Positions 15,147 through 50,813 of a stretch of DNA of 64,000 nt are shown here, one piece after another. A program made the translations under genes and the position numbers. Numbering within the stretch: the stretch's first letter is position 1; the number at the start of each line of letters is the position of its first letter. Under the pieces are notes generated by a model that worked only from the letters and a program-made list of their open reading frames with translations, ran no database searches and was not told where the DNA came from. The stretch is from an uncultured Oscillospiraceae bacterium (GTDB lineage: Bacteria; Bacillota; Clostridia; Oscillospirales; Oscillospiraceae): NCBI GenBank assembly GCA_950075865.1, contig CATMVA010000001.1, forward strand, positions 62,001 to 126,000, given 5' to 3'.

Positions 15147-15975
15147 CGGAAAGGCGCTGGCGGCCAAGATCAAGGCGGAGACCCGGCAAAAGGCCGAGCA
15201 GATGGCTCGCAGACCCGGCCTGGCAGTGATTCTGGTGGGGGAGGACCCTGCCTCCCGGGTCTATGTGAACGGGAAGAGGAGGGACTGCGCCGAGTGCGGG
15301 TTTTACAGCGAGGAGTATACCCTGCCAGAAACGGTGTGCCAAGCCCAGCTTTTAGAGCTGATCGAGGGCTTGAATGAGCGTGGGGACATTGACGGCATTC
15401 TTGTGCAACTGCCTCTGCCCGGGCATTTGAACGAGCAGGAGGTTATCAATGCCATCGATCCGGAAAAGGATGTGGATTGTTTCCATCCGGTCAATGTGGG
15501 CAAGCTGATGATCGGAAGGGAGGGCTTTTTGCCCTGTACGCCGGCCGGCGTGATGGCTCTTTTGGACGAGTACCACATCGACCCCGCCGGCAAGCGTGCC
15601 GTGGTGGTAGGGCGCTCCAATATCGTAGGGAAGCCACAGGCGATCCTTTTGCTCCAACGGGACGCCACCGTTACCATCTGCCACTCCAGGACCCCTGGCC
15701 TGGCCGAAATTTGCCGACAGGCTGATATCCTTGTCAGTGCAGTTGGCCGTAGAGGACTGATCACGGCCGATATGGCGAAGGAGGGGGCTGTGGTCATTGA
15801 TGTGGCCATGAACCGCAACGAAGAGGGAAAGCTGTGCGGAGATGTGGACTTTGATGCAGTGGCTCTCAAGGCTTCCTATATCACGCCAGTGCCCGGTGGG
15901 GTCGGGCCCATGACGAGGGCGGTCCTGATGAAAAACACCCTCTATTCGGCCCAAAGAAGACAGAATTTGAAATAA
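15133..15975 (+). CDS. folD: Methylene-THF dehydrogenase / methenyl-THF cyclohydrolase
   Basis: 280 residues, the usual length, from GTG 15133 with GGGAGGA upstream. Characteristic motifs are [42 protein letters not shown] (NADP site) and the C-terminal [10 protein letters not shown]. The enzyme interconverts 5,10-methylene- and 10-formyl-tetrahydrofolate in the cytoplasm, feeding purine and formyl-Met synthesis. It overlaps lgt. Confidence 0.97.
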
Positions 15976-37064: not shown

Positions 37065-37475
37065 TTACTTATCGAATGCCGGATTGACAAAATAGACGTT
37101 TTTCTGGTCCATCTTCTCCTTAGCCAGCTTAATGGCCTCACCGAAGCGCTGGAAGTGAATGATTTCACGTTCCCGTAGGAAACGGATCACGTCATTCACA
37201 TCAGGGTCATCGGACAAACGCAGGATATTGTCATAGGTGAGCCGGGCTTTTTGCTCGGCCGCCAGATCCTCAGTCAGGTCGGCGATCACGTCGCCGGTGG
37301 ACTGCATGGTAGCGGCAGACCAGGGGTAACCAGAGGCGAACTGGGGATAGATGCCTGTGGTATGGTCCACGAAATAGGTGTCAAACCCGGCGGTTCGAAT
37401 CTGCTCCTCGGTGAGATTCCGGGTGAGTTGATGGACAACAGTGGCCACCATCTCCAGGTGCCCCAGCTCCTCGGT
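37065..37475 (-). pseudogene. cotJC: cotJC, C-terminal part, cut off by the 12.7-kb island
   Basis: Reading from 37475, the frame encodes the last 135 residues of CotJC, a manganese-catalase-type spore-coat protein: TEELGHLEMVATVVHQLT, DTYFVDHTTGIYPQFASGYPW, and a C-terminal REREIIHFQRFGEA helix. The metal-binding Glu and His residues of the catalase fold lie in this part. The N-terminal 63 residues are at 50170-50357. Joining the halves at the shared AC (minus strand) gives an intact 198-residue protein, so this is an interrupted rather than a decayed gene. No stops or frameshifts are seen. Confidence 0.93.
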
Positions 37476-37747
37476 ACCTACAAAGGGGTCGAAATGTACC
37501 AGTTCAGAACCGGAAGAATCCAGTGGTTTCAAAGGCTTGCCAGCAGGTTACCTTTACACCCTGCCGCCTCAGCGGGTACCCTTTCGCCGCCTGAGAACAG
37601 GGGAGATGAGCTTTTATAAAAAGGACAAGCCCTCTTGGAGAGTAGACGTATATGTGGCACTTCCGTGTTGAATTCTGATCAGGTATTCCCAAATGATGTC
37701 GTTTGTAGTAAAATAATAGAAAATGCGGACGAAAGGCAGTGAACTGT

Positions 37748-39214
37748 ATGATTACAGGCGAACTGAAAAACAAGATCAACGCTCTATGGGAAATCTTCTG
37801 GACGGGCGGCATCACCAATCCCTTGGACGTGGTGGAGCAGATGACCTACCTGATGTTCATCCACGATCTGGATGAGACGGACAGCCGTAAGGCCAAGGAA
37901 TCCGTCATGCTGGGCCTGCCCCACAGGAGCATTTTTGAGGAGAACAGCCAGCTCAAGTGGTCAGTGTTTCACGACTTCCCCGCCGAGCGGATGTACACTG
38001 TCATGCAGGAGCAGGTGTTTCCCTTCATCAAGAACCTCCACGGGGACAGGGAGAGCGCCTACGCCCGGTACATGGACGACGCCATTTTCAAAGTCCCCAC
38101 CCCCCTGATGCTGGAGAAGATCGTCACCGCTCTGGACGAAATTTACGACCAGATGGCCCAACTCCAGGACAGGGACGTGCGGGGGGACGTGTACGAGTAC
38201 CTGCTGTCCAAGATCGCCACCGCCGGGGTCAACGGCCAGTTTCGCACCCCCCGGCACATCATCAAAATGATGGTGGAGCTGATGGCCCCCGGCCCGGACG
38301 AGGTCATCTGTGACCCGGCCTGCGGCACCTCCGGCTTCCTGGTGGCGGCGGGAGAGTACCTGAAGGAGCACCACAGGGAGGAAATCTTTTTCAATCGGGA
38401 GAAAAAAGCCCACTACATGAACGCCATGTTCCACGGCTACGATATGGACCGCACCATGCTGCGCATCGGTGCCATGAACATGATGACCCACGGAGTGGAC
38501 AGCCCCACCATCCAGTACCAGGACAGCCTGTCCGACCAGAACACCGACCGGGAGAAGTACTCCCTCATCCTGGCCAATCCCCCCTTCAAGGGCAGCCTGG
38601 ACGCCGATATCGTGTCCGCCGACCTCTTAAAGCTGTGCAAGACCAAGAAGACCGAGCTGCTGTTTCTGGCCCTGTTCCTGAAGATGCTCCGGGTGGGCGG
38701 GCGGTGCGCCTGCATCGTCCCCGACGGCGTTCTGTTCGGGTCGTCCAAGGCCCACAAGGACATCCGCCGGGAGCTGGTGGAGAACCACCGCCTGGAGGCC
38801 GTTATCTCCATGCCCTCGGGGGTGTTCAAGCCCTACGCCGGGGTGTCTACCGGGGTGCTCATCTTCACCAAGACCGGCCACGGCGGGACGGACCAGGTGT
38901 GGTTCTACGACATGCGGGCCGACGGCCTCTCCCTGGACGACAAGCGTGCCCCCACGGCGGAGAACGACATCCCCGATATCGTCGCCCGGTTCCATAACCT
39001 GGCAGGGGAGACGGCCCGGGCCCGGACTGAGCAGTCCTTCCTGGTGCCCAAGGGGGAGATCGTGGAGAATGGCTACGACCTGTCCATCAACAAGTACAAA
39101 AAAACTGAGTACGTCCCCGTGGAGTACCCGCCCACCAGCGAGATTTTCGCCCAGCTTCGGGAGCTGGAGGCGGAGATTCAGAAGGGGCTGGAGGAATTGG
39201 AGGGGATGGTGTGA
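37748..39214 (+). CDS. hsdM: Type I restriction-modification methyltransferase subunit
   Basis: 488 residues from ATG 37748 (GAAAGGCAG upstream). An N-terminal helical HsdM domain (ELKNKINALWEIFWTGGI) precedes the MTase core with motif I DPACGTSGFL (about 188) and motif IV NPPF (about 277), an N6-adenine enzyme. It acts as M2S with HsdS, and as R2M2S for cleavage. The GC-rich codon use contrasts with hsdS. A weak promoter candidate (TTCCCA, 17 bp, TAAAAT at 37709-37714) lies upstream. Its stop overlaps the hsdS start. Confidence 0.96.
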   Translation: MITGELKNKINALWEIFWTGGITNPLDVVEQMTYLMFIHDLDETDSRKAKESVMLGLPHRSIFEENSQLKWSVFHDFPAERMYTVMQEQVFPFIKNLHGDRESAYARYMDDAIFKVPTPLMLEKIVTALDEIYDQMAQLQDRDVRGDVYEYLLSKIATAGVNGQFRTPRHIIKMMVELMAPGPDEVICDPACGTSGFLVAAGEYLKEHHREEIFFNREKKAHYMNAMFHGYDMDRTMLRIGAMNMMTHGVDSPTIQYQDSLSDQNTDREKYSLILANPPFKGSLDADIVSADLLKLCKTKKTELLFLALFLKMLRVGGRCACIVPDGVLFGSSKAHKDIRRELVENHRLEAVISMPSGVFKPYAGVSTGVLIFTKTGHGGTDQVWFYDMRADGLSLDDKRAPTAENDIPDIVARFHNLAGETARARTEQSFLVPKGEIVENGYDLSINKYKKTEYVPVEYPPTSEIFAQLRELEAEIQKGLEELEGMV

Positions 39215-40314
39215 TGATACAATTAGGCGATATTTGCACTAAAGCTTCTTCTGGTATTGCACAAAAAGATTTGGAACATTGCAACGGTGCTTATCCGATT
39301 TATGGGGCAAGCGGCCTGATTAAATATGTGGATTTTTATCAGCAAGAAAATCCATATGTAGCGGTTGTAAAAGATGGAGCAGGCGTAGGCAGAGTAATGC
39401 AATTACCTGCAAAATCATCGGTCATAGGGACTATGCAATATATCATCCCTAATGAGGGAATCAGTGTCCAATACTTGGCTTATGCGATGGAACACATGAA
39501 TCTGGCAAAATATTATACAGGAGCTACTATTCCGCATATTTATTTCAAAGACTACTGCAAGGAAAAACTTCAGGCTCACAATACGGACGAGCAAAGACAT
39601 ATTGCGCTTGTATTGGGCAAAATTGCCGGCCTGATCTCCCTCCGTAAACAGCAGCTTGCCAAATTAGATGAACTGGTCAAGGCAAGATTTATGGAGATGT
39701 TTGGGGACCCGGTTACTAATCCATACAACTGGGAGCAAGTACCACTAAAAACATCTGCGATACGTTTGAGCGATGGCCCATTTGGTTCAAATTTGAAATC
39801 AGAACATTATGTACAGAGCGGTATTCGTGTAATTCGTTTGGGAAACATTGGGGTGGGTGAGTTTATTGATAAAGATAAGTCATTTATTTCCAAAGAACAC
39901 TATGAACAACTAAAGAAATATACATGCAAGCCGGGAGAAATTGTCATTGGAACGTTAGGTGACCCTAATTTGAGAGCATGTATCGTTCCTGAATATTTGG
40001 GAATTGCAATAAACAAGGCTGATTGTGTACATTATGTTCCGAAAAGTGGTATGTTGTTGGCAGATTTTGTCTGTCAATATATAAATTGTCCTGAAACTCT
40101 GTTGCTAGCGGCGTCAATGGTGCATGGTCAAACAAGAAGTAGAATTTCGTCAGGACAGCTTGCTGATTTGCCAATTTTTATGCCTCCAATAGAAATTCAA
40201 AAAGAATTTACGTGTTTTTATCAAGCAAAGAACAGACAAAAGTTGACAATCCAGCAGAGTTTGGATAAACTGGAAATGCTGAGGAAATCGCTGATGCAGG
40301 AGTATTTTGGGTAG
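39214..40314 (+). CDS. hsdS: Type I restriction specificity subunit
   Basis: 366 residues from ATG 39214, overlapping the hsdM stop. Two target-recognition domains are each followed by a conserved helical segment: NTDEQRHIALVLGKIAGLISLRKQQLAKLDELVKA and IEIQKEF to QSLDKLEMLRKSL. TRD1 spans about 1-125 and TRD2 about 170-320. The gene is clearly richer in AT than its hsdM and hsdR neighbours, consistent with exchange of specificity domains by recombination. The recognition sequence cannot be predicted from this alone. Confidence 0.93.
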   Translation: MIQLGDICTKASSGIAQKDLEHCNGAYPIYGASGLIKYVDFYQQENPYVAVVKDGAGVGRVMQLPAKSSVIGTMQYIIPNEGISVQYLAYAMEHMNLAKYYTGATIPHIYFKDYCKEKLQAHNTDEQRHIALVLGKIAGLISLRKQQLAKLDELVKARFMEMFGDPVTNPYNWEQVPLKTSAIRLSDGPFGSNLKSEHYVQSGIRVIRLGNIGVGEFIDKDKSFISKEHYEQLKKYTCKPGEIVIGTLGDPNLRACIVPEYLGIAINKADCVHYVPKSGMLLADFVCQYINCPETLLLAASMVHGQTRSRISSGQLADLPIFMPPIEIQKEFTCFYQAKNRQKLTIQQSLDKLEMLRKSLMQEYFG

Positions 40315-40449
40315 ACCCTCTCCGCCCCAGTGTGCGCACTGGGGCACCTCCCCCAATGGGGGAGGTTTTAAGTGGCGCAATCAAGTAATTCTGTGCGTAG
40401 CTCCCCCTTTGGGGGAGCTGTCGCCGCCGAAGGCGGTGACTGAGAGGGT
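40315..40449. repeat. 135-bp palindromic repeat element with 8-bp terminal inverted repeats
   Basis: It begins right after the hsdS stop with ACCCTCTC (40315-40322) and ends with GAGAGGGT (40442-40449). Inside are four hairpins: CCCCAGTG/CACTGGGG (40325-40344), CCTCCCCC/GGGGGAGG (40347-40365), AGCTCCCCC/GGGGGAGCT (40399-40419) and CCGCC/GGCGG (40424-40436). Similar REP/MITE-like units are familiar from gut Clostridia genomes. It sits directly before the DUF559 gene. Confidence 0.75.
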
Positions 40450-40468
40450 GTTCGCCCAGGAGGTAATC

Positions 40469-40828
40469 ATGACAGTTCCCAAAAACGGCCAAATGCTCCC
40501 CAGGGCAAGAGAGCTGCGCCGGAACATGACACCGCAGGAGAAAAAACTATGGTATCAGTTTTTGCGGAAATATCCTGTCAAAATTTATAAACAACGGATT
40601 GTTGAATCATTTATTGTGGATTTCTATTGTGCTTCCGCAAAGCTGGTCATTGAGCTGGACGGTTCCCAGCACTATACAGAGCAGGGAGAAGCATATGACG
40701 CAGAGCGCAGCGCCTGCTTAGCGCGCTACGGACTGGAAGTGGTACGGTTTACAAATAGTGAGATTGACACGGAATTTGACGCAGTTTGTAGAAAAATTCA
40801 TACTGTAATTCAAGAAAGACAGGGGTGA
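40469..40828 (+). CDS. DUF559-family endonuclease-like protein
   Basis: 119 residues from ATG 40469 with CAGGAGGT upstream. The pattern RARELRRNMTPQEKKLW, VESFIVDFYCASAKLVIELD and EVVRFTNSEI is that of DUF559, a Vsr-like PD-(D/E)XK nuclease fold. It lies between hsdS and hsdR, four bases before hsdR, so it is translated within the restriction operon. Its role there is unknown. It may be a hitch-hiking gene linked to the palindromic repeat just upstream, or an accessory nuclease. Confidence 0.85.
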   Translation: MTVPKNGQMLPRARELRRNMTPQEKKLWYQFLRKYPVKIYKQRIVESFIVDFYCASAKLVIELDGSQHYTEQGEAYDAERSACLARYGLEVVRFTNSEIDTEFDAVCRKIHTVIQERQG

Positions 40829-40832
40829 CACC

Positions 40833-43800
40833 ATGACCAACTTCGACCGCTTCCTCACCGACTCCCAATTCAGCTCTTTTGCCGAAGCCGCCGCGGCGGC
40901 GGAGAAAATCCTGCACATCGACCTGGCCGCCTGCATCCTGAACTGCCGGCGGGCGATGGAGTGCGGGGTCAAGTGGATGTACTCGGTGGACGGCGCGCTG
41001 GTCAAGCCCTGGCAGGACACCCTGGTAAACCTGATGGGGACGGCGGAGTTCCGGGAGATTGTGGGGAAGGACCTGTGGAAGCGGATGGACCACATCCGCC
41101 GCATGGGCAACGCCGCCGCCCACGGGGGCAAGGCGCTGACCCGGGCCCAGGCGGAGCTGTGTCTGGAGAACCTGTACATATTCCTGGACTTCGTGGCCTA
41201 CTGCTACGGAACCGACTATCAGGAGGGGCAGTTTGACCGCTCCCTGCTGGAGGAGCGGCCCGCTGAACCGGTGCCGGCCCCAACTGCCCCTAACGTGGAC
41301 CTGGAGGCCCTCATCGCGGAGAACCAAAAGCTCAAAGCGGAGCTCACCGCCCGGCGGGAGGAGCAGAAGCAGAGCTATGTGCCCAAGCCCCTGGACCTCA
41401 CCGAGTACGAGACCCGCAAGCTGTACATCGACGCCATGCTCCTGGACGCCGGCTGGACCCAGGGCCAGGACTGGCTGAACGAGGTGGAGCTGTCCGGTAT
41501 GCCCAACAAGTCGGGGGTGGGCTATGCCGACTATGTGCTCTATGGCTCCGACGGCCGGCCCCTGGCGGTGATCGAGGCCAAGCGCACCTGCGTGGACGTG
41601 TCCAAGGGCCGCCAGCAGGCCAAGCTGTACGCCAGCATTCTGGAGGAAAAATACGGCCGCCGTCCGGTGGTCTTTCTCACCAACGGCTTCGACACCCGCA
41701 TCGACGACGGGGCCTATCCGGAGCGGAAGGTTGCGGCCATCTACTCCAAACGGGACCTGGAGAAGCTGTTCAATCTGCGCGCCATGCGGACAAGCCTGGC
41801 CGATGTGGCGGTGGACAAGGACATCGCCGGTCGCTGGTATCAGGAGAGTGCCGTCAAGGCGGTGTGCGGCAGCTTTGCGCAGAACCGCCGGAAGGCCCTG
41901 CTGGTCATGGCCACCGGTTCGGGCAAGACGAGAACGGTGATCGCTCTGTGTGATGTGCTGCTGCGCCGCGGCTGGGTGAAGAATATCCTGTTTCTGGCCG
42001 ACCGGAACTCCTTGGTCACCCAGGCCAAGCGGAGCTTTGTCAACCTGCTGCCCAGCCTGTCGGTGACCAACCTGTGTGAGGAGAAGAACAACACCGCCGC
42101 CCGGTGCGTCTTTTCCACCTACCAGACCATGATGAACTGCATCGACGCGGTGCAGGACGAGGAGGGCAAGCTGTTTACCTGCGGCCACTTCGACCTGGTC
42201 ATCTGTGACGAAGCCCACCGCTCTATTTACAACAAATACCGGGACATTTTCACCTACTTCGACGCCCCGCTGGTGGGCCTCACTGCCACCCCCAAGGACG
42301 AGATCGACAAGAACACCTACGAGGTCTTTGAGCTGGCCAACGGCGACCCCACGTTCGGCTATGAACTGGCCCAGGCGGTGGCCGACGGCTTCCTGGTGGA
42401 CTTTATGAGTGTGGAGACCCGGCTGAAATTCCTGGAGGAGGGCATCGCCTACGACGAGCTGTCCGCCGAGGACAGGGAGGCGTACGAAAATACCTTTGAG
42501 GACGAAAACGGGGAGCTGCCCGAGAAAATCAGCTCCCCCGCCCTCAACGAGTGGGTCTTTAACGAAGATACCATCAAAGAGGTCTTGAACATCCTCATGA
42601 CCCACGGTCTGCACATCGACTACGGCGAGAAGCTGGGCAAGACCATCATCTTTGCCAAGAACCACCGCCACGCTGAGAAGATTCTGGAAATTTTCGGCCG
42701 GGAGTACCCTGATCTGCCCGGCTACGCCATGGTCATCGACAACTATATGACCTACGCCCAGAGCGCCATTGACGACTTCTCCGACCCAAAAAAGCTGCCC
42801 CAGATCGCCATCTCAGTGGACATGCTGGACACCGGCATCGACGTACCTGAGGTGCTGAACCTGGTATTTTTCAAGAAAGTAATGAGCAAGGCCAAGTTCT
42901 GGCAGATGATTGGGCGGGGTACCCGGCTGTGTCCGGGACTGCTGGACGGGACGGACAAGGAGAAGTTCTATATCTTCGATTTCTGTGGAAATTTTGAGTT
43001 TTTCCGTATGAATGACAAGGGAAAGCCCGCAGTCAGCCGCCTGCCTCTCCAGGGCGCGGTTTTCCAGCTCAAGGCCCAAATTGTGTATAAGCTCCAGGAT
43101 CTGGCCTATCAGACAGAGGAGCTGATCGCCTTCCGCCAGGGGCTGGTGGCGGACATGGTGGCCAAGGTTCGGGCGCTGAACCGGGAGAACTTCGCCGTCC
43201 GCCAACATCTGCGGTATGTGGAGAAGTTCAGCAATGTGGAGAGTTACGCCGCCCTCAGCTATGAGGACACGCTGAACATCGGAGAGGAATTGGCCCCGCT
43301 GATTGCCCCAGACGGGGATGACCCCAAGGCGGTCCGCTTTGACGCATTGATATACGGCATCGAGTTGGCCTGCCTTGCCGGCGAGAAGTACACCCGCGCC
43401 CGGAACGATCTGCTGAAAAAGGTCCAGGGGATCGCCAGAGTGGCCAACATCCCGGCCATTCAGACCCACTCAGATTTGATTGACAAAATTCTTCACACTA
43501 ACTATCTGGATGATGCGGGGATGAACGAATTTGAGCACATTCGGGAAAACCTGAGGGATTTGATCAAGTACATCCCAGTCGAACTTGCCCACTACACCAC
43601 CAACTTCGACGATGAAATTCTGTCCATAGAATGGAAAGAGTCCCAGCTGGAGAACAATGACCTGCAAAACTACAAGGCCAAGGCGGAGTACTATGTCCGC
43701 CAGCACCAGGACGAGGCGGTCATCGCCAAGCTGAAGGGCAATGTTCCGCTGACAACAGAGGATGTGACTGCGCTGGAGCGCATCCTATGGAGCGAGGTGG

Positions 43801-44123
43801 GCAGCCGTCAGGACTATGAGGCGGAGTTGGGGGCCAAGCCTCTGGGGGAGTTCGTCCGGGAGATCGTGGGACTGGATATGCACGCGGCAAAAGCGGCCTT
43901 TTCCCAATACCTCACCGATACCAGTCTGGACAGCCGTCAGATCTATTTCGTGAACCAGATCGTGGAGTATATCGTCCGCAACGGTATGATGAAAGATCTG
44001 TCTGTACTCCAGGAGCCGCCCTTCACCGACCAGGGCAGTGTGGTGGAGGTGTTCACCGACATCTCCCTCTGGCTGGGCATCAAGGCGGTGATCGACAAGA
44101 TCAACGCCAATGCAGCGGCATAA
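40833..44123 (+). CDS. hsdR: Type I restriction enzyme endonuclease/translocase subunit
   Basis: 1096 residues from ATG 40833. An N-terminal DUF4145-like helical region (about 10-115) is followed by the HsdR nuclease domain with GVGYADYVLYG and AVIEAKRT (the E-x-K of the active site). The motor has Walker A ATGSGKT (about 360), DEAH (about 459) and SVDMLDTGIDVPEV with QMIGRGTR (motif VI). The C-terminal helical domain binds HsdM. It cuts DNA after translocation from unmethylated sites. Complete, with no frameshift seen. Confidence 0.95.
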   Translation: MTNFDRFLTDSQFSSFAEAAAAAEKILHIDLAACILNCRRAMECGVKWMYSVDGALVKPWQDTLVNLMGTAEFREIVGKDLWKRMDHIRRMGNAAAHGGKALTRAQAELCLENLYIFLDFVAYCYGTDYQEGQFDRSLLEERPAEPVPAPTAPNVDLEALIAENQKLKAELTARREEQKQSYVPKPLDLTEYETRKLYIDAMLLDAGWTQGQDWLNEVELSGMPNKSGVGYADYVLYGSDGRPLAVIEAKRTCVDVSKGRQQAKLYASILEEKYGRRPVVFLTNGFDTRIDDGAYPERKVAAIYSKRDLEKLFNLRAMRTSLADVAVDKDIAGRWYQESAVKAVCGSFAQNRRKALLVMATGSGKTRTVIALCDVLLRRGWVKNILFLADRNSLVTQAKRSFVNLLPSLSVTNLCEEKNNTAARCVFSTYQTMMNCIDAVQDEEGKLFTCGHFDLVICDEAHRSIYNKYRDIFTYFDAPLVGLTATPKDEIDKNTYEVFELANGDPTFGYELAQAVADGFLVDFMSVETRLKFLEEGIAYDELSAEDREAYENTFEDENGELPEKISSPALNEWVFNEDTIKEVLNILMTHGLHIDYGEKLGKTIIFAKNHRHAEKILEIFGREYPDLPGYAMVIDNYMTYAQSAIDDFSDPKKLPQIAISVDMLDTGIDVPEVLNLVFFKKVMSKAKFWQMIGRGTRLCPGLLDGTDKEKFYIFDFCGNFEFFRMNDKGKPAVSRLPLQGAVFQLKAQIVYKLQDLAYQTEELIAFRQGLVADMVAKVRALNRENFAVRQHLRYVEKFSNVESYAALSYEDTLNIGEELAPLIAPDGDDPKAVRFDALIYGIELACLAGEKYTRARNDLLKKVQGIARVANIPAIQTHSDLIDKILHTNYLDDAGMNEFEHIRENLRDLIKYIPVELAHYTTNFDDEILSIEWKESQLENNDLQNYKAKAEYYVRQHQDEAVIAKLKGNVPLTTEDVTALERILWSEVGSRQDYEAELGAKPLGEFVREIVGLDMHAAKAAFSQYLTDTSLDSRQIYFVNQIVEYIVRNGMMKDLSVLQEPPFTDQGSVVEVFTDISLWLGIKAVIDKINANAAA

Positions 44124-44134
44124 TCCAATACAGT

Positions 44135-44172
44135 CCAGGAACCGGTTAATCTGAAACCGGTTCCTGGTTCTT
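44135..44172. terminator. Terminator after hsdR, overlapping the convergent gene
   Basis: CCAGGAACCGGTT (44135-44147) pairs with AACCGGTTCCTGG (44155-44167), followed by TTCTTCTT. The 13-bp stem also covers the stop codon of the minus-strand gene. Confidence 0.8.
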
Positions 44173-45402
44173 CTTGTACTGATCCCGCAGGCTTTGATGC
44201 CCCTCCTGGTCTTTTTGAATCAGAGCCTCCCTTGTAAAATACTGCCACTGAGGATTGTCCGTAGGTTTACCGAGATCAAGCACCATAAAAGAAGCCGGAT
44301 ATTTCCGCTCGGGATCGAAGTCCAAGTCGGCGGCCACCCGCTTTTGCCAAAAGCTCTCCTCCGGCAGTAGCTCTTGCTTGACGGTATTGTAACTGGCCAG
44401 TTCATGGGTGGTGTCGATGCGCCTCAGAAATTCCTCTGCCTTGATTCTCCCTGCCATATACTCCCGACGAGCCTGACGGGCATTTGTTTCCCATTCGTCG
44501 TACTGCATAGGTGTCATGGGAATCAAGCGATCCCGCTGATTCTCCGGTGCGTCCTGATAGCGGAGCATCCTGGCATACATCCGGTCCCGCAGCTGCTTGA
44601 ACAGCTTCAGGGCGTCATCCTGTTCTGGACCCTTTCTGCGTTTGAGGTTTGCCCCCCGTTTTTTGCAGGACTGTCCGTCAAAAATCCGGTCGCAGTAGAG
44701 CGCTCTGGCTTTGGTTTTCGGTATGAAGTAATTCCAGCAGCAGTCGCACCGGGCAATGCGCTGCTTTTCCTGGCGGAAGTACAGCATCAGCTCCACCAGC
44801 CTCAGCTGATACACATTGTCCACCGGGAGCGGCAGGATTGCATTCTTATAGCCATCCAGCCGGGCGGGGTCACAGAACTCTGCAATCTTGGGATAAACGC
44901 CACGCAACTTTTCAAACCGCTTCTGTTGGGTAGCCCTCTCCATCCCGTCGAAGGTCATCTCCATGATGTTGCGAAGCCGAATCTGTGTGTAGATGGGAAC
45001 CTCCAGGGCTTGCAGTAAGCGCCGTCCGGCGTGAAGGAGGAACGACGCGGAGCCGTCATCCTGCATCCGCAGAACTTGCTCCAGTAGATTTCCCAACTCA
45101 AAGAAACCGAGTGGGTCAATCTCTCGAAGCATAGATGGGAGCATCAGCACCTCAGCAGTCAAGTCCTCCAGCTCGGACACCGAAATATTCAGCTTTGCCT
45201 CAAATAGCGGATGCCCTTCATAGAGACGTTGGATTTCCCGGCGGTAGGCGGTATAATCTATCTCCGCCGCAGCGACCAAATCCTCCGTAGGTGTAACAAA
45301 AGGAAGATTTGTCTCTGGCCCATATGTCCCAGACATCACAACACAAATTTTCTCATCGTCCCCAGTCTCAATCCAGAGACTGGGGAATTTTTTGCCTGCC
45401 AT
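44146..45402 (-). CDS. Uncharacterised protein with a Cys-rich zinc-binding motif (DUF6076-like)
   Basis: 418 residues; ATG 45402 follows GAGGAGGGAG. The first 210 residues are mostly helical. Cys219, Cys222, Cys237 and Cys246 (CDCCWNYFIP, YCDRIFDGQSC) form a treble-clef-like zinc motif resembling the CGNR/DUF6076 class of accessory-genome proteins. A basic helical region follows. It is the only minus-strand gene of the island, between the restriction and mobilisation modules. Function is unknown; a nucleic-acid-binding or defence-related role is only a guess from context. Confidence 0.65.
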   Translation of the reverse strand: MAGKKFPSLWIETGDDEKICVVMSGTYGPETNLPFVTPTEDLVAAAEIDYTAYRREIQRLYEGHPLFEAKLNISVSELEDLTAEVLMLPSMLREIDPLGFFELGNLLEQVLRMQDDGSASFLLHAGRRLLQALEVPIYTQIRLRNIMEMTFDGMERATQQKRFEKLRGVYPKIAEFCDPARLDGYKNAILPLPVDNVYQLRLVELMLYFRQEKQRIARCDCCWNYFIPKTKARALYCDRIFDGQSCKKRGANLKRRKGPEQDDALKLFKQLRDRMYARMLRYQDAPENQRDRLIPMTPMQYDEWETNARQARREYMAGRIKAEEFLRRIDTTHELASYNTVKQELLPEESFWQKRVAADLDFDPERKYPASFMVLDLGKPTDNPQWQYFTREALIQKDQEGHQSLRDQYKKNQEPVSD

Positions 45403-45660
45403 GCCGCTCCCTCCTCAAGATCACTTCATGATGTAAAGACGGCTGGATTTATTGTAGCATGACAGCGAGGAAAAAGAAAGTCTGGACGAACCTTGACAAC
45501 TGAATACCCACCACCAGAGAGGATATGTCTTCGGTTCCAGTACCGCCATGACCCCGCAGATGTGGGTAAGCGTACCAGAGGAGAACACTATGCGGCAGAG
45601 AAGCCTGGCGCAGGAACGGGTATGGTGTGTGGCCTAACAACACAGAAAAGGAGAATTGAA

Positions 45661-46794
45661 ATGAACAAGCTCAACACCATCGACGGTGAGACCCTGATGA
45701 GCCGTCCGCTCCAGCCGCTGAACTTCGTGGTGGACACATTGATCTCCCAGGGTCTGCACATCCTCGCAGGCTCTCCCAAGGTCGGGAAGTCCTGGCTGGC
45801 CCTGTGGCTGGCGGTGGCCGTTGCCAAGGGCGAACCCGTCTGGGGAATGCAGGTAAAGCAGGGAACGACTCTGTACCTCTGCTTGGAGGACTCCCAGCTC
45901 CGCATCCAGAACCGACTGTTCGACGTGACGGAGGATGCACCAGCTAATGTCCACTTCTGCACTGAGAGCCGCATCCTGGGTGATGGATTGACCGAGCAGC
46001 TGGAGCAGTTCCTCAGTGAGCACCCGGACACCTCCCTCGTCATCATCGACACCCTGCAAATGATTCGGGGCGCTGTCTATGACAACACCTACGCCAACGA
46101 CTACCGCGACCTGTCCGCCCTAAAGCGTCTGGCTGATGCCCATGGTATCGCCATCCTGCTGATCCACCATCTGCGGAAAGAAAAGGCGGACGATGTGTTC
46201 AATCGCATCTCTGGCACTACCGCCATCAGCGGCGCGGTGGACGCCAGCTTCACGCTGGTGGAGGAGCAGCGGGGCAGCGGCAGAGCGAAGCTCAGTTGTA
46301 TCGGTCGGGACATCGAGTACCGGGAACTGGAGCTACGCCGCAATGCCGACAACGTGTGGGAAGTGACAGCGGACAGCTATCAGCAGCCGGAACTGCTGGG
46401 CAGCAAAGTGGTCGTTCTCCTCTCTGCCTTACTCCAAAACCGTTCTCAGTTTATCGGCACTCCCACGGAGCTGGCACAGCGCATCGACCCTGTCGGCACA
46501 GAAGGAATCACGCCTAAGAACGTCTCCAAGAAAATCCTACAAAGCGTTGAGGCTCTAAGCAATGCGGGTATCACAGCGGTCATACGCAGGAGTAACGGAA
46601 AGCGGCTGATCGATCTGCGTCGTGCCGATAGTGCCGACAACGTCGGGACCAGCGTGGCCGACCCTGTTGACCCTGTCACCACCGCTGTAACGCCTCGTGT
46701 GGGCCAGCAGGAGGCAAGGCGGGAGCTGATACCCGGTCAGACAGAGAGGCTCCCGTTGGGGCGGAAAACCCACCCTTGGGTGGGGCAAGCATAG
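45661..46794 (+). CDS. RepA-like hexameric-helicase-type ATPase of the second island
   Basis: 377 residues from ATG 45661 (AAAGGAGA upstream). RecA-fold ATPase with Walker A GSPKVGKS (37-44), YLCLEDSQ, Walker B LVIIDTLQ and ILLIHHLRK. It aligns by eye along its whole ATPase core with the protein at 23654-24838. The C-terminal 60 residues are low-complexity and overlap hairpin-forming DNA. It probably drives replication or strand separation of the excised element. Confidence 0.85.
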   Translation: MNKLNTIDGETLMSRPLQPLNFVVDTLISQGLHILAGSPKVGKSWLALWLAVAVAKGEPVWGMQVKQGTTLYLCLEDSQLRIQNRLFDVTEDAPANVHFCTESRILGDGLTEQLEQFLSEHPDTSLVIIDTLQMIRGAVYDNTYANDYRDLSALKRLADAHGIAILLIHHLRKEKADDVFNRISGTTAISGAVDASFTLVEEQRGSGRAKLSCIGRDIEYRELELRRNADNVWEVTADSYQQPELLGSKVVVLLSALLQNRSQFIGTPTELAQRIDPVGTEGITPKNVSKKILQSVEALSNAGITAVIRRSNGKRLIDLRRADSADNVGTSVADPVDPVTTAVTPRVGQQEARRELIPGQTERLPLGRKTHPWVGQA

Positions 46795-46861
46795 CATCCG
46801 GCTATACGCCGGCCGCATTCGCCGGGGCAAAGCCCCTGCATCCCCTGCCCCTAAAGGGGAG
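46769..46861. repeat. Hairpin cluster before mobC, candidate oriT
   Basis: CCCACCC/GGGTGGG (46769-46784), CCGGC/GCCGG (46798-46812), an alternative CCGGC/GCCGG (46809-46825), GGGGC/GCCCC (46824-46836) and CCCC/GGGG before the mobC ribosome site. It overlaps the end of the RepA-like gene and lies immediately upstream of mobC and the relaxase gene, the usual oriT position. Confidence 0.5.
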
Positions 46862-46873
46862 AAAGGAAATATA

Positions 46874-47188
46874 ATGCAAAGAAGAAAAACAGAAATTGTC
46901 ACAGCTCGAATGACACCGAAGGTGAAAGCCCAACTCCAGCAGCGGGCACGAGACGCCAACATGACGCTCACAGACTACCTGTGTATTTGCGGACTGGGGC
47001 GGGAGATCGTTCGGGTAGAGGGATTGGATGCTGTCCTCTCTGAACTGAAAGCCCAGGGCCGTAACCTCAACCAGCTCACCACACTGGCCAACATGGGACG
47101 GCTCACTGTCCTCCGCAGCGACGAGCTGATCGACAGGTATGCCGACCTCTGCGCGGCCATCCGCAGACTGACAAAGGAGGTGAGGTGA
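46874..47188 (+). CDS. mobC: MobC relaxosome protein
   Basis: 104 residues from ATG 46874 with GAAAGGAAA upstream. A ribbon-helix-helix N terminus (IVTARMTPKVKAQLQQRA) is followed by the MobC signature GRNLNQLTTLANMG. MobC binds oriT and helps the relaxase nick. It overlaps the relaxase start (GTGATG). Confidence 0.9.
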   Translation: MQRRKTEIVTARMTPKVKAQLQQRARDANMTLTDYLCICGLGREIVRVEGLDAVLSELKAQGRNLNQLTTLANMGRLTVLRSDELIDRYADLCAAIRRLTKEVR

Positions 47189-48183
47189 TGGCTACCTTCA
47201 CCGCTATCCGAAACAAGAAGCAGACCGCCGGCGCTATGCTGGGTGTGCTGTCCTATGTGGTGCAGGCGAAGAAAACGATGCTGGACGGCGCGTGTCTGGT
47301 CACTGGGAGCAACTGCGTACCCCAGACGTCCTACCTGGAGATGATGACCACCAAGCAGCGGTTTCGAAAAGCGGACGGCAGGCAGTTCTACCACTTCGTC
47401 CAGTCCTTCTCCGAAGATGACGACCTCACACCCCAAGAGGCTAACGCCATCGGTCTGGAACTGGCACAGAGAGCGTTTCCTGGCTATGAGGTGGTGATTG
47501 CCACCCACGTGGACACCAGCCACCTCCACAACCATCTGGTGGTGAACAGCGTCAGCTGTGAGAGTGGCAGAAAGCTCCACCAGAACCGTGAAACCTTGCT
47601 GGCGCACCGGCAGCTCAACGACGAGATTTGTAAGGCCCACGGACTGCAGGTTCTGGAGGCACCAGAGAAGTATCCGAAGAAGAAGCGGATGAAGCCCGGC
47701 GAGTACCAGGCGGGGTTGCGGGCGGACAGCTGGAAGCTGGATCTGATTCAGGCCATCAACGAGGCGCTGGAGTACGCCGTTGATCGGGAGAGTTTTATTG
47801 AGAATATGGAGTACGAAGGTTACGAGGTGACCTGGACGGATACCCGGAAGCACATCACCTTCACCTGCCCCAACGGGCGGAAGTGCCGGGACAGCAGTCT
47901 CCACGACGAGACTTTCCTCAAAGAAAATCTGGAGGCGCTGTTCGCCTACCGGCAGGCTGTGGGATTCTGCCCCGGCAGTGTGGAACCGGACGAGGGTTGG
48001 ATAGGTGAGTTGACAAGCGGACTTATTCAGCTGGGCAGGGCAGTGGAGCGCAGTGATGACCTGCCGCCGCTCCCTACACCGCCGACTTGGACAGATAGCA
48101 AGCAGCGCCGCCGGGAGGCCATCAAGAAGATGGCCATGGGGCAGAAGTTCAGCGGCAGCCAACAGTGGGAACAGTCCATGTGA
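47188..48183 (+). CDS. MobA/VirD2-family relaxase
   Basis: 331 residues from ATG 47188 with AAGGAGGTGAG upstream. The metal-binding HUH-type motif HVDTSHLHNH spans residues 107-116, and Tyr23 (LSYVVQ) is the likely nucleophile. The basic C terminus (KQRRREAIKKMAMGQK) probably binds DNA. It nicks oriT and pilots the strand into a helper conjugation channel. No type IV secretion genes are in the window, so the island is mobilisable, not self-transmissible. Confidence 0.92.
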   Translation: MATFTAIRNKKQTAGAMLGVLSYVVQAKKTMLDGACLVTGSNCVPQTSYLEMMTTKQRFRKADGRQFYHFVQSFSEDDDLTPQEANAIGLELAQRAFPGYEVVIATHVDTSHLHNHLVVNSVSCESGRKLHQNRETLLAHRQLNDEICKAHGLQVLEAPEKYPKKKRMKPGEYQAGLRADSWKLDLIQAINEALEYAVDRESFIENMEYEGYEVTWTDTRKHITFTCPNGRKCRDSSLHDETFLKENLEALFAYRQAVGFCPGSVEPDEGWIGELTSGLIQLGRAVERSDDLPPLPTPPTWTDSKQRRREAIKKMAMGQKFSGSQQWEQSM

Positions 48184-48201
48184 AAATTCAGGAGGTACAA
48201 A

Positions 48202-48249
48202 ATGAAATTTTATAATGGCCAGAGCAACAGCCACATGAAAATAAAATAA
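48202..48249 (+). CDS. Possible 15-codon mini-ORF after the relaxase gene
   Basis: ATG 48202 is placed ideally behind CAGGAGGTA and encodes MKFYNGQSNSHMKIK. It is very short, and the ribosome site could be a remnant of a longer gene. Kept as a possibility only. Confidence 0.3.
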   Translation: MKFYNGQSNSHMKIK

Positions 48250-48317
48250 GAAAGGGGCAAAATTAATCAAAGCAGGCCAGTCCTATGCATACCCTTGGAG
48301 CAAAGGGGAGTGGCAGG

Positions 48318-48503
48318 ATGGCAGAACAGGCGCGGTTGCTTGATATCAAGAATGACCGGGAGATCACGAAAGAAACCGACAGCCAGTTCTTGTTTGAGTA
48401 TCAAAGAGCCGTTCTGCTGACGCTGAAGGACAAAGGTGTATTAAATGAAATGCAGTATCGATATGCAGAAGAAAAGCTGAAAAAACAGTTGAAACAATTC
48501 TAA
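48318..48503 (+). CDS. Small SHOCT-like protein upstream of the recombinase
   Basis: 61 residues from ATG 48318; an upstream ATG at 48285 would add 11 residues. The C terminus (QRAVLLTLKDKGVLNEMQYRYAEEKLKKQL) resembles the SHOCT oligomerisation motif: a long helix, a turn and a basic helix. It is found before large serine recombinases in related elements and may be a recombination accessory factor. That role is inferred from position. Confidence 0.6.
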   Translation: MAEQARLLDIKNDREITKETDSQFLFEYQRAVLLTLKDKGVLNEMQYRYAEEKLKKQLKQF

Positions 48504-48522
48504 AAAGTAATAGACTTTTGAC

Positions 48523-48557
48523 GACTGGTACGGTATATTGAGTGTGCCGTACCAGTC
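48523..48557. promoter_or_regulatory. Perfect 11-bp inverted repeat upstream of the serine recombinase
   Basis: GACTGGTACGG (48523-48533) and CCGTACCAGTC (48547-48557) flank a 13-base loop, 29 bp before the recombinase ATG. No T tract follows on either strand, so it looks like an operator or recombinase-binding site rather than a terminator. Confidence 0.55.
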
Positions 48558-48585
48558 AAAATAAAACGGAGGGGCGAACGATACC

Positions 48586-50208
48586 ATGATAAAAGTAGCA
48601 TCTTACTGCCGTGTGTCTACAGACCGGGATGATCAGGCCAATTCATTTGAGAGCCAACAGCGATATTTTAAGGAGTACATCGACCGCCAGCCAGACTGGG
48701 AGTTGTATGAAGTCTACGCTGACGAGGGAATCACCGGAACGTCGACGAAGAAACGAGCCGCCTTCAATCGAATGATTGCCGACGCCCATTTGGGGAAATT
48801 TCAGTTGATCCTTACCAAGGAGGTCAGCCGTTTTTCTCGAAATATATTGGACACCATCACCTACACCCGAGAGCTGAAAGCGTTGGGGGTAGGTGTTCTG
48901 TTTATGAACGACGGGATCAGTACCCTGGAGCCGGACGCCGAGCTTCGGCTGTCCATCATGGGATCGATTGCCCAGGAGGAGAGCAGAAAAACGTCGACCC
49001 GGGTGAAGTGGGGACAGACCAGGCGGATGGAGCAGGGGGTAGTGTTCGGAAGATCGCTCTTGGGCTATGATGTAAAGGATGGTTGCCTGACAGTAAATCC
49101 AGAGGGCGCGGAGATTGTCAGGTTGATCTTCTACAAATATGGCGTGGAGAAAAAGGGAACTACTGTCATTGCTCGGGAGCTTCGGGAGGCGGGGTATCGG
49201 ACCCATAGCGGCAATATGAAATGGTCCAACACCCACATCGTCAAAATCCTGAAGAATGAGAAATATGTGGGAGATCTGGTGCAGAAGAAGACCATCACGC
49301 CGGATTACCTGAGCCACGCCAAGAAATACAACCACGGGGAGGAGGAACTGGTGATTATACGGGACCACCATGAGCCTATCATTGACCGGGAGTTGTGGGA
49401 CACCGTTCAGCGGGAGCTGAAAAAGCGGAACCGCAATGGGGAATTGGGGGCGGGACACTCCAACCGCTATGTGTTCAGCGGTAAAATCAAGTGCGGAGAG
49501 TGCGGGGCCAGCTTTGTTTCCCGGAAGAAATCCCGTAAGGATGGTTCGCTTTATAAGCGTTGGAGCTGCTATACTGCCACGTCAGAGGGGCAGAAACGGA
49601 TCGATGTTCGGGGTAATGAGGTAGGCTGCGATGTAGGTAAACTCCTGCGGGATGAATTGGCGTTGGATATCCTCCAGCAGTCTCTGACCACCCTGCGAAT
49701 GGACCGGGACAGGATCATCCAAAATGTCACTGCTCTGGCATTAGAGGCAATTCAGATGTGCGAGGAAGGAAGCACTGACAGGGCTGAGGCGTTGGAATAT
49801 GAAATCAGCCAGCTGAAGCAAAAGAAAGCGGATGTGCTGGACGCCTTCTTCTCCAAGCAAATCACAAAAGAGGAGATGCAGTTGGTTAACCAGCGGTACG
49901 ATAGGGAGCTGGAAGATTTTCAACGGAGGCTGGAGGGGGTACGAGAGCGAGAGAGTATCACTTACGAGAAGGATCAGCTGGAGAAGGATGTGGGCCGTCA
50001 GGTGGTTGACATTGTAAATTGTAGGGCAGACAGCGAGGTGCTTTACAAAAATGTCCTGGACCACATGGTGGTACACAAGGACCGAAAAATTGAGGTTTTT
50101 CTAAATCTTTTGCCGCAAAAATGGACTTTTGTACTGGAAAATCTGCGCAAGTCCCAGAATAACACCCCAGTGCCGATATCGGTAAGAAGAGCCTTCAGCT
50201 CAGGATAA
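48586..50208 (+). CDS. Large serine recombinase of the cotJC island
   Basis: 540 residues from ATG 48586 (GGAGGGG upstream). The resolvase domain has the catalytic Ser11 in YCRVSTDRDDQ and Arg residues in SRFSRN. A Recombinase domain (about 160-280), a zinc ribbon (CGECG at about 303 with a later GCDVG) and a coiled coil follow, as in TndX/SpoIVCA-like enzymes. The last 13 codons (from 50170) are read from antisense cotJC, so the C terminus depends on the insertion. In the circular form the same frame would continue at 37476 to a stop at 37671. It presumably excises the island and restores cotJC. Confidence 0.94.
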   Translation: MIKVASYCRVSTDRDDQANSFESQQRYFKEYIDRQPDWELYEVYADEGITGTSTKKRAAFNRMIADAHLGKFQLILTKEVSRFSRNILDTITYTRELKALGVGVLFMNDGISTLEPDAELRLSIMGSIAQEESRKTSTRVKWGQTRRMEQGVVFGRSLLGYDVKDGCLTVNPEGAEIVRLIFYKYGVEKKGTTVIARELREAGYRTHSGNMKWSNTHIVKILKNEKYVGDLVQKKTITPDYLSHAKKYNHGEEELVIIRDHHEPIIDRELWDTVQRELKKRNRNGELGAGHSNRYVFSGKIKCGECGASFVSRKKSRKDGSLYKRWSCYTATSEGQKRIDVRGNEVGCDVGKLLRDELALDILQQSLTTLRMDRDRIIQNVTALALEAIQMCEEGSTDRAEALEYEISQLKQKKADVLDAFFSKQITKEEMQLVNQRYDRELEDFQRRLEGVRERESITYEKDQLEKDVGRQVVDIVNCRADSEVLYKNVLDHMVVHKDRKIEVFLNLLPQKWTFVLENLRKSQNNTPVPISVRRAFSSG

Positions 50209-50357
50209 GGCATGGCGTACCGTTGGGAGAGATAGCGCAGGGAAGCTCCCAACTCTCCATCGGGCCCCCCGTACTGGCTGATAATGACCGAAGCCAGCTT
50301 GGGGTTGGTGTTTTTGATCTTCACCGGGTACTGCAGTTTTTTCTCATACATGAACAT
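50170..50357 (-). pseudogene. cotJC: cotJC, N-terminal part, cut off by the island
   Basis: ATG 50357 starts MFMYEKKLQYPVKIKN, the typical CotJC N terminus. Host coding continues through ISQYGGPDGELGASLRYLSQ to ALLTDIGT, where the island begins. The full-length family continues with EEL, which is exactly what the 37475 side encodes. In the present state the frame would run into the recombinase gene and stop at 50043, giving a 104-residue hybrid. It starts three bases after the cotJB stop, as in the cotJABC operon. Confidence 0.93.
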
Positions 50358-50360
50358 GGC

Positions 50361-50813
50361 TTACTTCTTGCCTCCTTCCGGATAGTCCCAGGGCCAAGGA
50401 TCCATGACCCAGCAGTTCCAATTCTTCTGGCCGGCGGTGGCGAACATGGTGACCGGGCCGTACATTGACTCGTACTTTTCCCGGCCGGCCTTCTCCAGGG
50501 CAGAATACTGCTGAAAGAGAGCAAAGGCCTCGGCGTCATCCTGATGGGTATCCAGGTAGAGCCCCAGCTCCTGAAGGACAAACTCCAGGGCCTGGAGTTC
50601 GCCCAGTGGCCCCTTTACCACATTCGGGGCATCCACCTTCAGATGGAAGGGAAGGTTGAGCCCAGGAAAGAGGGTCCCGTTGCTAAGAGCGTCATTTTGG
50701 CTATACCGCTTGGGGTTTGTCTGTTGAAAGGGGACATAGGGCACTGCCAGTGGAGCGCACTCCGGCAATGTGCCGCAGGCATCCTGACAGACGGGATTCT
50801 TATCAGGTTCCAA
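50361..50813 (-). CDS. CotJA-CotJB fusion spore-coat protein
   Basis: 150 residues from TTG 50813, eight bases after AAGGAGG. The N-terminal half (VPYVPFQQTNPKRY, SNGTLFPGLNLPF) matches the small CotJA pattern. The C-terminal half (GELQALEFVLQELGLYLDTH to WVMDPWPWDY) matches CotJB. In Bacillus these are separate genes, cotJA, cotJB and cotJC. The three products are coat proteins laid down by the mother cell. Sigma-E control is likely but I could not assign a promoter. Confidence 0.85.
   Translation of the reverse strand: MEPDKNPVCQDACGTLPECAPLAVPYVPFQQTNPKRYSQNDALSNGTLFPGLNLPFHLKVDAPNVVKGPLGELQALEFVLQELGLYLDTHQDDAEAFALFQQYSALEKAGREKYESMYGPVTMFATAGQKNWNCWVMDPWPWDYPEGGKK

Follow-up and report, generated by a model that had tools for sequence, protein, structure and literature searches.

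The spore-coat gene cotJC of an uncultured Oscillospiraceae bacterium is split by a 12,696-base-pair (bp) island whose precise removal would restore it. In the 64,000-nucleotide stretch of contig CATMVA010000001.1 (assembly GCA_950075865.1) analysed here, hereafter the window, cotJC lies in two minus-strand pieces flanking the island, a 3′ piece at 37065–37478 (codon Gly62 to the stop) and a 5′ piece at 50173–50357 (ATG to Gly62), both delimited by sequence alignment and attachment-site symmetry, which when joined give an uninterrupted, in-frame CotJC of 198 amino acids. In our view the island is likely to be an integrative and mobilizable element (IME) that has its bacterial attachment site (attB) in cotJC and that splits and then rebuilds the gene, with the rebuilt gene used in some hosts. 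Its large serine recombinase would recognize attB at the Gly62 codon, immediately ahead of the conserved TEELGH segment; recombination between the element's own site (attP) and attB would split cotJC into two in-frame exons on entry, the reverse reaction would rebuild it on exit, and across the family at least some hosts would use the product. That split cotJC is rebuilt by excision in some hosts we consider likely; the case for a tie between rebuilding and sporulation stands about evenly balanced, and active excision in this particular strain, with its timing in sporulation, is inferred.

A first-pass annotation of the window had placed the two halves on the minus strand where we find them and proposed that a mobilizable type I restriction island of about 12.7 kb, equipped with a large serine recombinase, could leave cotJC by an exact rejoining at I-G-T-E-E without change of frame; the measured length, the Pfam and PADLOC matches and the open joined frame bear this out. 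The host genome (2.29 Mb, 37 contigs, 89.4% complete) holds a single Mn_catalase gene, the split cotJC, and the second, intact copy that could have made restoration irrelevant was not found in it. SpoIVA is encoded in the same genome, and cotJC, which we take to be expressed in the mother cell, is a sporulation gene, so that the element sits inside a sporulation-specific gene as skin-type elements do. Each of the five sampled congeners gave an Mn_catalase match of nearly full length, and the two that were checked carry an intact cotJC, 92–93% identical.

The recombinase family returns to the same codon in genome after genome. From a search of GTDB species genomes with the recombinase we took the best 80 loci (51–96% identical); in 77 of them the alignment boundary of a cotJC exon, at its end or its start, falls at codon 62; one more (L085) has it at the same codon by inspection, bringing the count to 78, and in 68 the exon lies no more than 700 bases from the recombinase. 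Within the sequence available, cotJC was not seen at L065, where the contig ends 39 bases past the gene, or at L109. Since 78 of the best 80 related loci carry cotJC cut at one codon, the family, judged by its loci, is cotJC-specific and not there by chance. Occupation of the same site in relatives had been put forward as a check, and insertion at unrelated sites as a sign against the proposal; the same integrase family occupies this cotJC site in many genomes, and relatives at unrelated sites were not seen among these loci. Their hosts span several Clostridia lineages by title (Oscillospiraceae, Lachnospiraceae, Butyricicoccus, Pelotomaculum and others). Many loci, including most of the named ones, come from metagenome assemblies, and the same split is present in isolates, among them Flavonifractor sp. 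An10 (L043) and Pusillibacter faecalis MM59 (L186); Ructibacterium gallinarum DSM 107454 (L082) is a further isolate whose cotJC is split. The L186 record, 504 kb long and labelled a plasmid, has its split cotJC adjoining restriction genes and also carries ruvABC, radA and xerD; it looks chromosome-like.

The crossover point can be placed within this codon. For 26 of the elements with both ends available we rebuilt attP from the two ends and scored its symmetry over 24 positions. The rebuilt attP is an inverted repeat, with a mean symmetry of 14.3/24 when centred on the GG of the Gly62 codon, against means of 4.0–8.3/24 at 19 other offsets, and in 23 of the 26 elements the best symmetry falls exactly at this GG. 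The two ends of an element are matched to one another, since left ends combined with the right ends of other elements give a mean of only 11.0 (s.d. 0.43; maximum of 200 shuffles, 12.1). The window's own attP scores 9/24, the joint lowest of the 26 with L162, and its left half-site is the same over 22 bases as that of L161. On the strength of the symmetry across the 26 elements, the recombination core is most likely the GG of Gly62 (CC on the forward strand, at 37477–37478 in attL and 50173–50174 in attR). The GT that the first-pass annotation had noted is indeed common to both junctions (37474–37475 and 50170–50171); the probable crossover lies three bases from it, and with either GG or GT as the crossover I-G-T-E-E is restored and the protein is the same. 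After rejoining in silico, the frame stays open in 25 of the 26 alleles across DIGTEE(L/M)xH and for as far as the available exon extends; among them L161 lacks its first codons owing to a second break upstream and L167 ends at a further break. The sole allele that does not read through, L059, runs into a scaffold gap.

Where an element has probably been resident for long, the exons remain under purifying selection, which is our reason for proposing that at least some hosts use the rebuilt gene. Five pairs of 3′ exons, with dS of 0.40–1.28, give dN/dS values of 0.009 (L149/L150), 0.021 (L145/L146), 0.026 (L068/L069), 0.028 (L148/L152) and 0.084 (L144/L145). In these pairs the split 3′ exon has no promoter or start codon of its own, yet it is conserved. 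The corresponding elements are apparently fixed: they measure 3–5 kb and consist of the recombinase and a few non-transfer genes, for instance a pyrimidine nucleoside phosphorylase (L144–L146), HD-CE and MatE proteins (L068/L069), an alcohol dehydrogenase and a LysR regulator (L149/L150), or DNA alkylation repair, DUF134 and DUF218 proteins (L148 and, in part, L152), and no relaxase or MobC like that of the window was found in them. Their element genes are as diverged as the host flanks or more so, which speaks against recent transfer in those pairs. Rejoining is the simplest explanation for a gene that stays conserved while long split, and the in-frame split of the same gene in many relatives likewise suggests that cells rebuild it by cutting the island out; the rebuilt cotJC is thus probably used. 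As a separate observation, the recombinase open reading frame (ORF) of L152 (4477–6681) is 734 amino acids long and may be fused to a DNA alkylation repair gene, which in its relative L148 stands separately downstream.

These data bear on a different reading, in which cotJC is a convenient, dispensable site for elements that spread horizontally and excise in vegetative cells, the split gene being silent and seemingly intact only because its insertion is young. The window's own island fits such a history. Compared with L041, its AAA_25, MobC, relaxase and recombinase proteins are 94–99% identical (recombinase dS 0.165), while the cotJC N exons share 81% protein identity with a pS of 0.77, a level at which synonymous change is saturated; because the backbone is near-identical where the host exon is saturated, the window element is a mobilizable element that moves horizontally, and its insertion looks recent. 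L153/L154, with dS of 0.06–0.42 for element genes against about 1.1–1.2 for host genes, is by these divergences another case of recent transfer, and the near-full-length matches in all five congeners also accord with a dispensable site. The absence of decay in the window's halves, which the first-pass annotation had noted, is real in that both are clean; given a recent, horizontal acquisition, it is weak evidence for the window alone. What a dispensable, silent gene does not readily accommodate is the strong constraint in the pairs that lack recognizable transfer genes and whose element divergence is not below that of the host, nor the lack of wholesale decay among the 3′ exons examined. We therefore consider this reading unlikely and prefer excision with use of the rebuilt gene.

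Two further explanations dispense with excision altogether. The pieces might be expressed apart and assemble as a split enzyme, and 6 of 41 3′ exons do have an upstream in-frame ATG or GTG with a Shine–Dalgarno-like stretch. However, 14 of the 41 lack any in-frame start codon before the junction, counts from which the 3′ exon would seldom be usable alone; the DNA just upstream of it is element DNA, which varies from one element to the next; and the metal ligands of manganese catalases are, we assume, spread over both pieces. We judge a split enzyme very improbable. The split might instead be an artefact of metagenome binning, as the origin of many loci could invite one to think, but both window junctions lie within a single contig of at least 126 kb, the isolates named above are split too, and the attP symmetry also speaks against it, which leaves an artefact exceedingly improbable.

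A rejoined junction is present in one assembly, that of Ruminococcaceae bacterium UBA1417 (L059), which contains attL, attR and an allele-matched rejoined junction together. Its scaffold reads, in order, element end, GG, 19 bases of the 3′ exon, 2 Ns, a 14-base N-exon tail, GG and the whole 3′ exon, with an intact attR about 5 kb away on the same scaffold. The 14-base tail matches its own N exon, and no other locus examined contains its 26-base rejoined probe. The sequenced population thus contained both interrupted and rejoined cotJC, through excision or through mixture with an empty-site strain.

A number of observations count against excision and use. L059 may itself be such a mixture, and an allele-matched rejoined junction was not found for the other 25 elements in the loci examined. 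The rejoined motif occurs in 3 of 44 split genomes, and in none of these is it the genome's own excised allele: the motif in G259 belongs to another allele (79/98 bases), and those in G024 and G183 are element ends encoding a similar motif. Free attP was found neither in viral contigs, searched with one exact pattern, nor in the 300 genomes of the family survey described below, searched with one loose pattern; of its two matches one (G145) is an integrated end and the other (G118) a poor fit. Two short human-gut records labelled as phage, MT839280.1 and MT837874.1, match the recombinase and were considered as free circles and rejected; each contains a cotJC exon and is for that reason integrated DNA, and neither has a terminal overlap. 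Across every pair that could be compared, the 3′ exon shows no stronger constraint when interrupted than when intact (median dN/dS 0.166 in 96 interrupted pairs versus 0.156 in 60 intact pairs), and the window insertion, taken by itself, seems too young to have accumulated visible decay. Certain flanking genes in L149/L150 and L068/L069 show a dS of only 0.05–0.28, far below that of the element, so that diverged copies may have been acquired separately there. In L146 (4461–5600) the recombinase frame is broken near the C terminus, with the rest of it found some 270 bases beyond. Sporulation promoters were not seen above chance: sigma-E-like matches occur in 2 of 99 upstream regions, with about 1 expected. 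None precedes the window's own cotJ genes either, and because this positive control is also unmatched, the scan is blind and uninformative.

Interruption of cotJC extends beyond this recombinase family. Among 300 sampled genomes of the same bacterial family, 237 have an Mn_catalase match; we re-searched 80, chosen by eye as having no near-full-length match listed and leaving out G056 and G286 (weak matches). In at least 73 of the 237, cotJC is broken at one of three recurrent sites, with both sides of the break seen in 56 and one side in 17; the count omits genomes that hold both intact and split copies, such as G038. Site A lies near codon 31 in QYGGPDGEL (25 genomes), site B near codon 62 in DIGTEELGHLE (42 genomes) and site C near codon 136 in EDLAAEQKAR (15 genomes), and two sites are broken together in 9 of the genomes. 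All three motifs presumably hold metal ligands. Elements inserted at A or C encode serine recombinases other than the one described above. Three collinear cotJC pieces occur in G150 (L168) and in the isolate Bacterium D16-51 (L091), where they lie at 15272–15180, 11700–11584 and 4120–3644, with breaks near codons 31 and 62. Of the 32 genomes of the family that match the recombinase best, 30 yielded no near-complete second cotJC; the exceptions are G038, with a full-length second copy, and G259, with a piece spanning codons 30–197.

Cargo at the other sites varies. A 5.8-kb site A element in G051 (L173, 2534–8359) carries a type III restriction-modification pair, again a defence cargo, with a different serine recombinase, and site C elements of about 9 kb in G214 and G089 (L175, L176) carry an Orn/Lys/Arg decarboxylase among other ORFs that look polyamine-related by eye. 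In G143 (contig C1) cotJC pieces at 71980–72309, 112357–112455 and 129685–129852 reflect breaks at sites A and C, and the opposite strand of the last piece suggests an inversion or a scaffold error. G280 shows an exact 127-base overlap inside cotJC between two contigs (C5, 3627–3753, and the end of C30), the signature of an assembly-graph break, at a position that fits poorly with any insertion site.

A broader, tentative reading, to which we give slightly less than even weight, is that cotJC serves gut Clostridia as a hub for a gene in pieces, cut by separate serine-recombinase elements at three codons in conserved motifs and sometimes by two of them in one gene. On this reading, mobile defence islands enter, and some shed their transfer genes, gain metabolic genes such as the pyrimidine nucleoside phosphorylase and end up as fixed switches of development; the coat catalase could then not be made until the doomed mother cell has cut out one or two elements. 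Defence genes housed at the cotJC site would be sheltered there and would cost the host little. Were rejoining developmental, rearrangement of sporulation genes would be common in gut Clostridia and not limited to a handful of cases, and intermediates in living relatives would show how a mobile defence island can turn into a fixed developmental element. For annotation, a split cotJC is not necessarily a pseudogene; the loci also pair many serine integrases with their attachment sites, all at a single conserved target.

The closest precedent is gin in gerE of Bacillus cereus ATCC10987, described as a 28.6-kb non-phage island in a mother-cell sporulation gene that carries a restriction/modification system and three recombinase genes and is excised by the serine recombinase GirC with the directionality factor GirX, its excision in sporulation having been shown experimentally (PMC5595907). 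Like gin, the cotJC island is non-phage, targets a sporulation gene and combines restriction genes with a serine recombinase; unlike gin, whose target is gerE, it is mobilizable, belongs to a family spread over many Clostridia and is known here from sequence alone. The serine-recombinase elements skin in sigK and SP-beta in spsM, for which PMC4191935 reports proven developmental control, resemble it in the in-frame interruption of a sporulation gene that precise excision would rebuild, whereas they are phage or phage-like and the window island has a relaxase and no phage structural gene in its ten scanned ORFs. With the IMEs of Firmicutes it shares a serine integrase and a relaxase without conjugation channel genes among the scanned ORFs; it differs from typical IMEs in attaching within a sporulation gene with conserved in-frame exons, and in that some relatives have lost transfer genes and kept the recombinase. 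In mostly non-subscription literature, a scope that falls short of proof of absence, we found no publication on elements in cotJC; a CotJC homologue adjoining a prophage in C. difficile is mentioned in PMC11222575.

Ten ORFs of the island were scanned, among them the element's own site-specific recombinase and a type I restriction-modification set complete as ORFs. On the plus strand, HsdM (methyltransferase; 37739–39214; N6_Mtase and HsdM_N; PADLOC MTase_I, E = 5e-184) is followed by the specificity subunit HsdS (39211–40314; Methylase_S; PADLOC Specificity_I), a DUF559 protein (40307–40828) whose listed ORF starts within hsdS and whose true start may be later, and the restriction subunit HsdR (40833–44123; ResIII, EcoEI_R_C and HSDR_N; PADLOC REase_I, E = 3e-159). 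A DUF6076-like protein with no assigned role (44146–45402; domain match E = 2.7e-5) lies on the minus strand. The remaining genes, again on the plus strand, encode an AAA_25 ATPase of replication-helicase type by its domain matches (45493–46794), a MobC/NikA-like mobilization protein (46874–47188; NikA-like match), a MobA/VirD2-type relaxase (47185–48183; E = 2e-37), a small conserved protein (48318–48503) and the 540-amino-acid large serine recombinase (48586–50208; Resolvase, Recombinase and Zn_ribbon_recom; PHROG integrase, E = 3e-121). Neither mating-channel nor phage structural families were detected by the Pfam scan of these ten ORFs, and with an integrase, a relaxase and no mating channel of its own among them, the island is by predicted gene content an IME. 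Outside it, directly upstream of cotJC on the minus strand, lies a cotJB-like ORF (50361–50813); the gene at the equivalent place in L186 is annotated as CotJB.

The small protein directly upstream of the recombinase (61 amino acids in the window) is no more than a candidate directionality factor. Of 133 loci, which are redundant in part, 115 contain a relative of it. In the other 18, among them L068/L069 and L144–L146, no relative was detected; L144 has a 54-amino-acid ORF of similar appearance at the same position. The protein has no Pfam, NCBIfam or PHROG match, and its structure model is a two-helix hairpin (pLDDT 92.6). Between this gene and the recombinase, at 48523–48557, lies an inverted repeat with 11-base arms, GACTGGTACGG ... 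CCGTACCAGTC; two such matches occurred in none of 100 shuffles, and the repeat may be an operator or a terminator.

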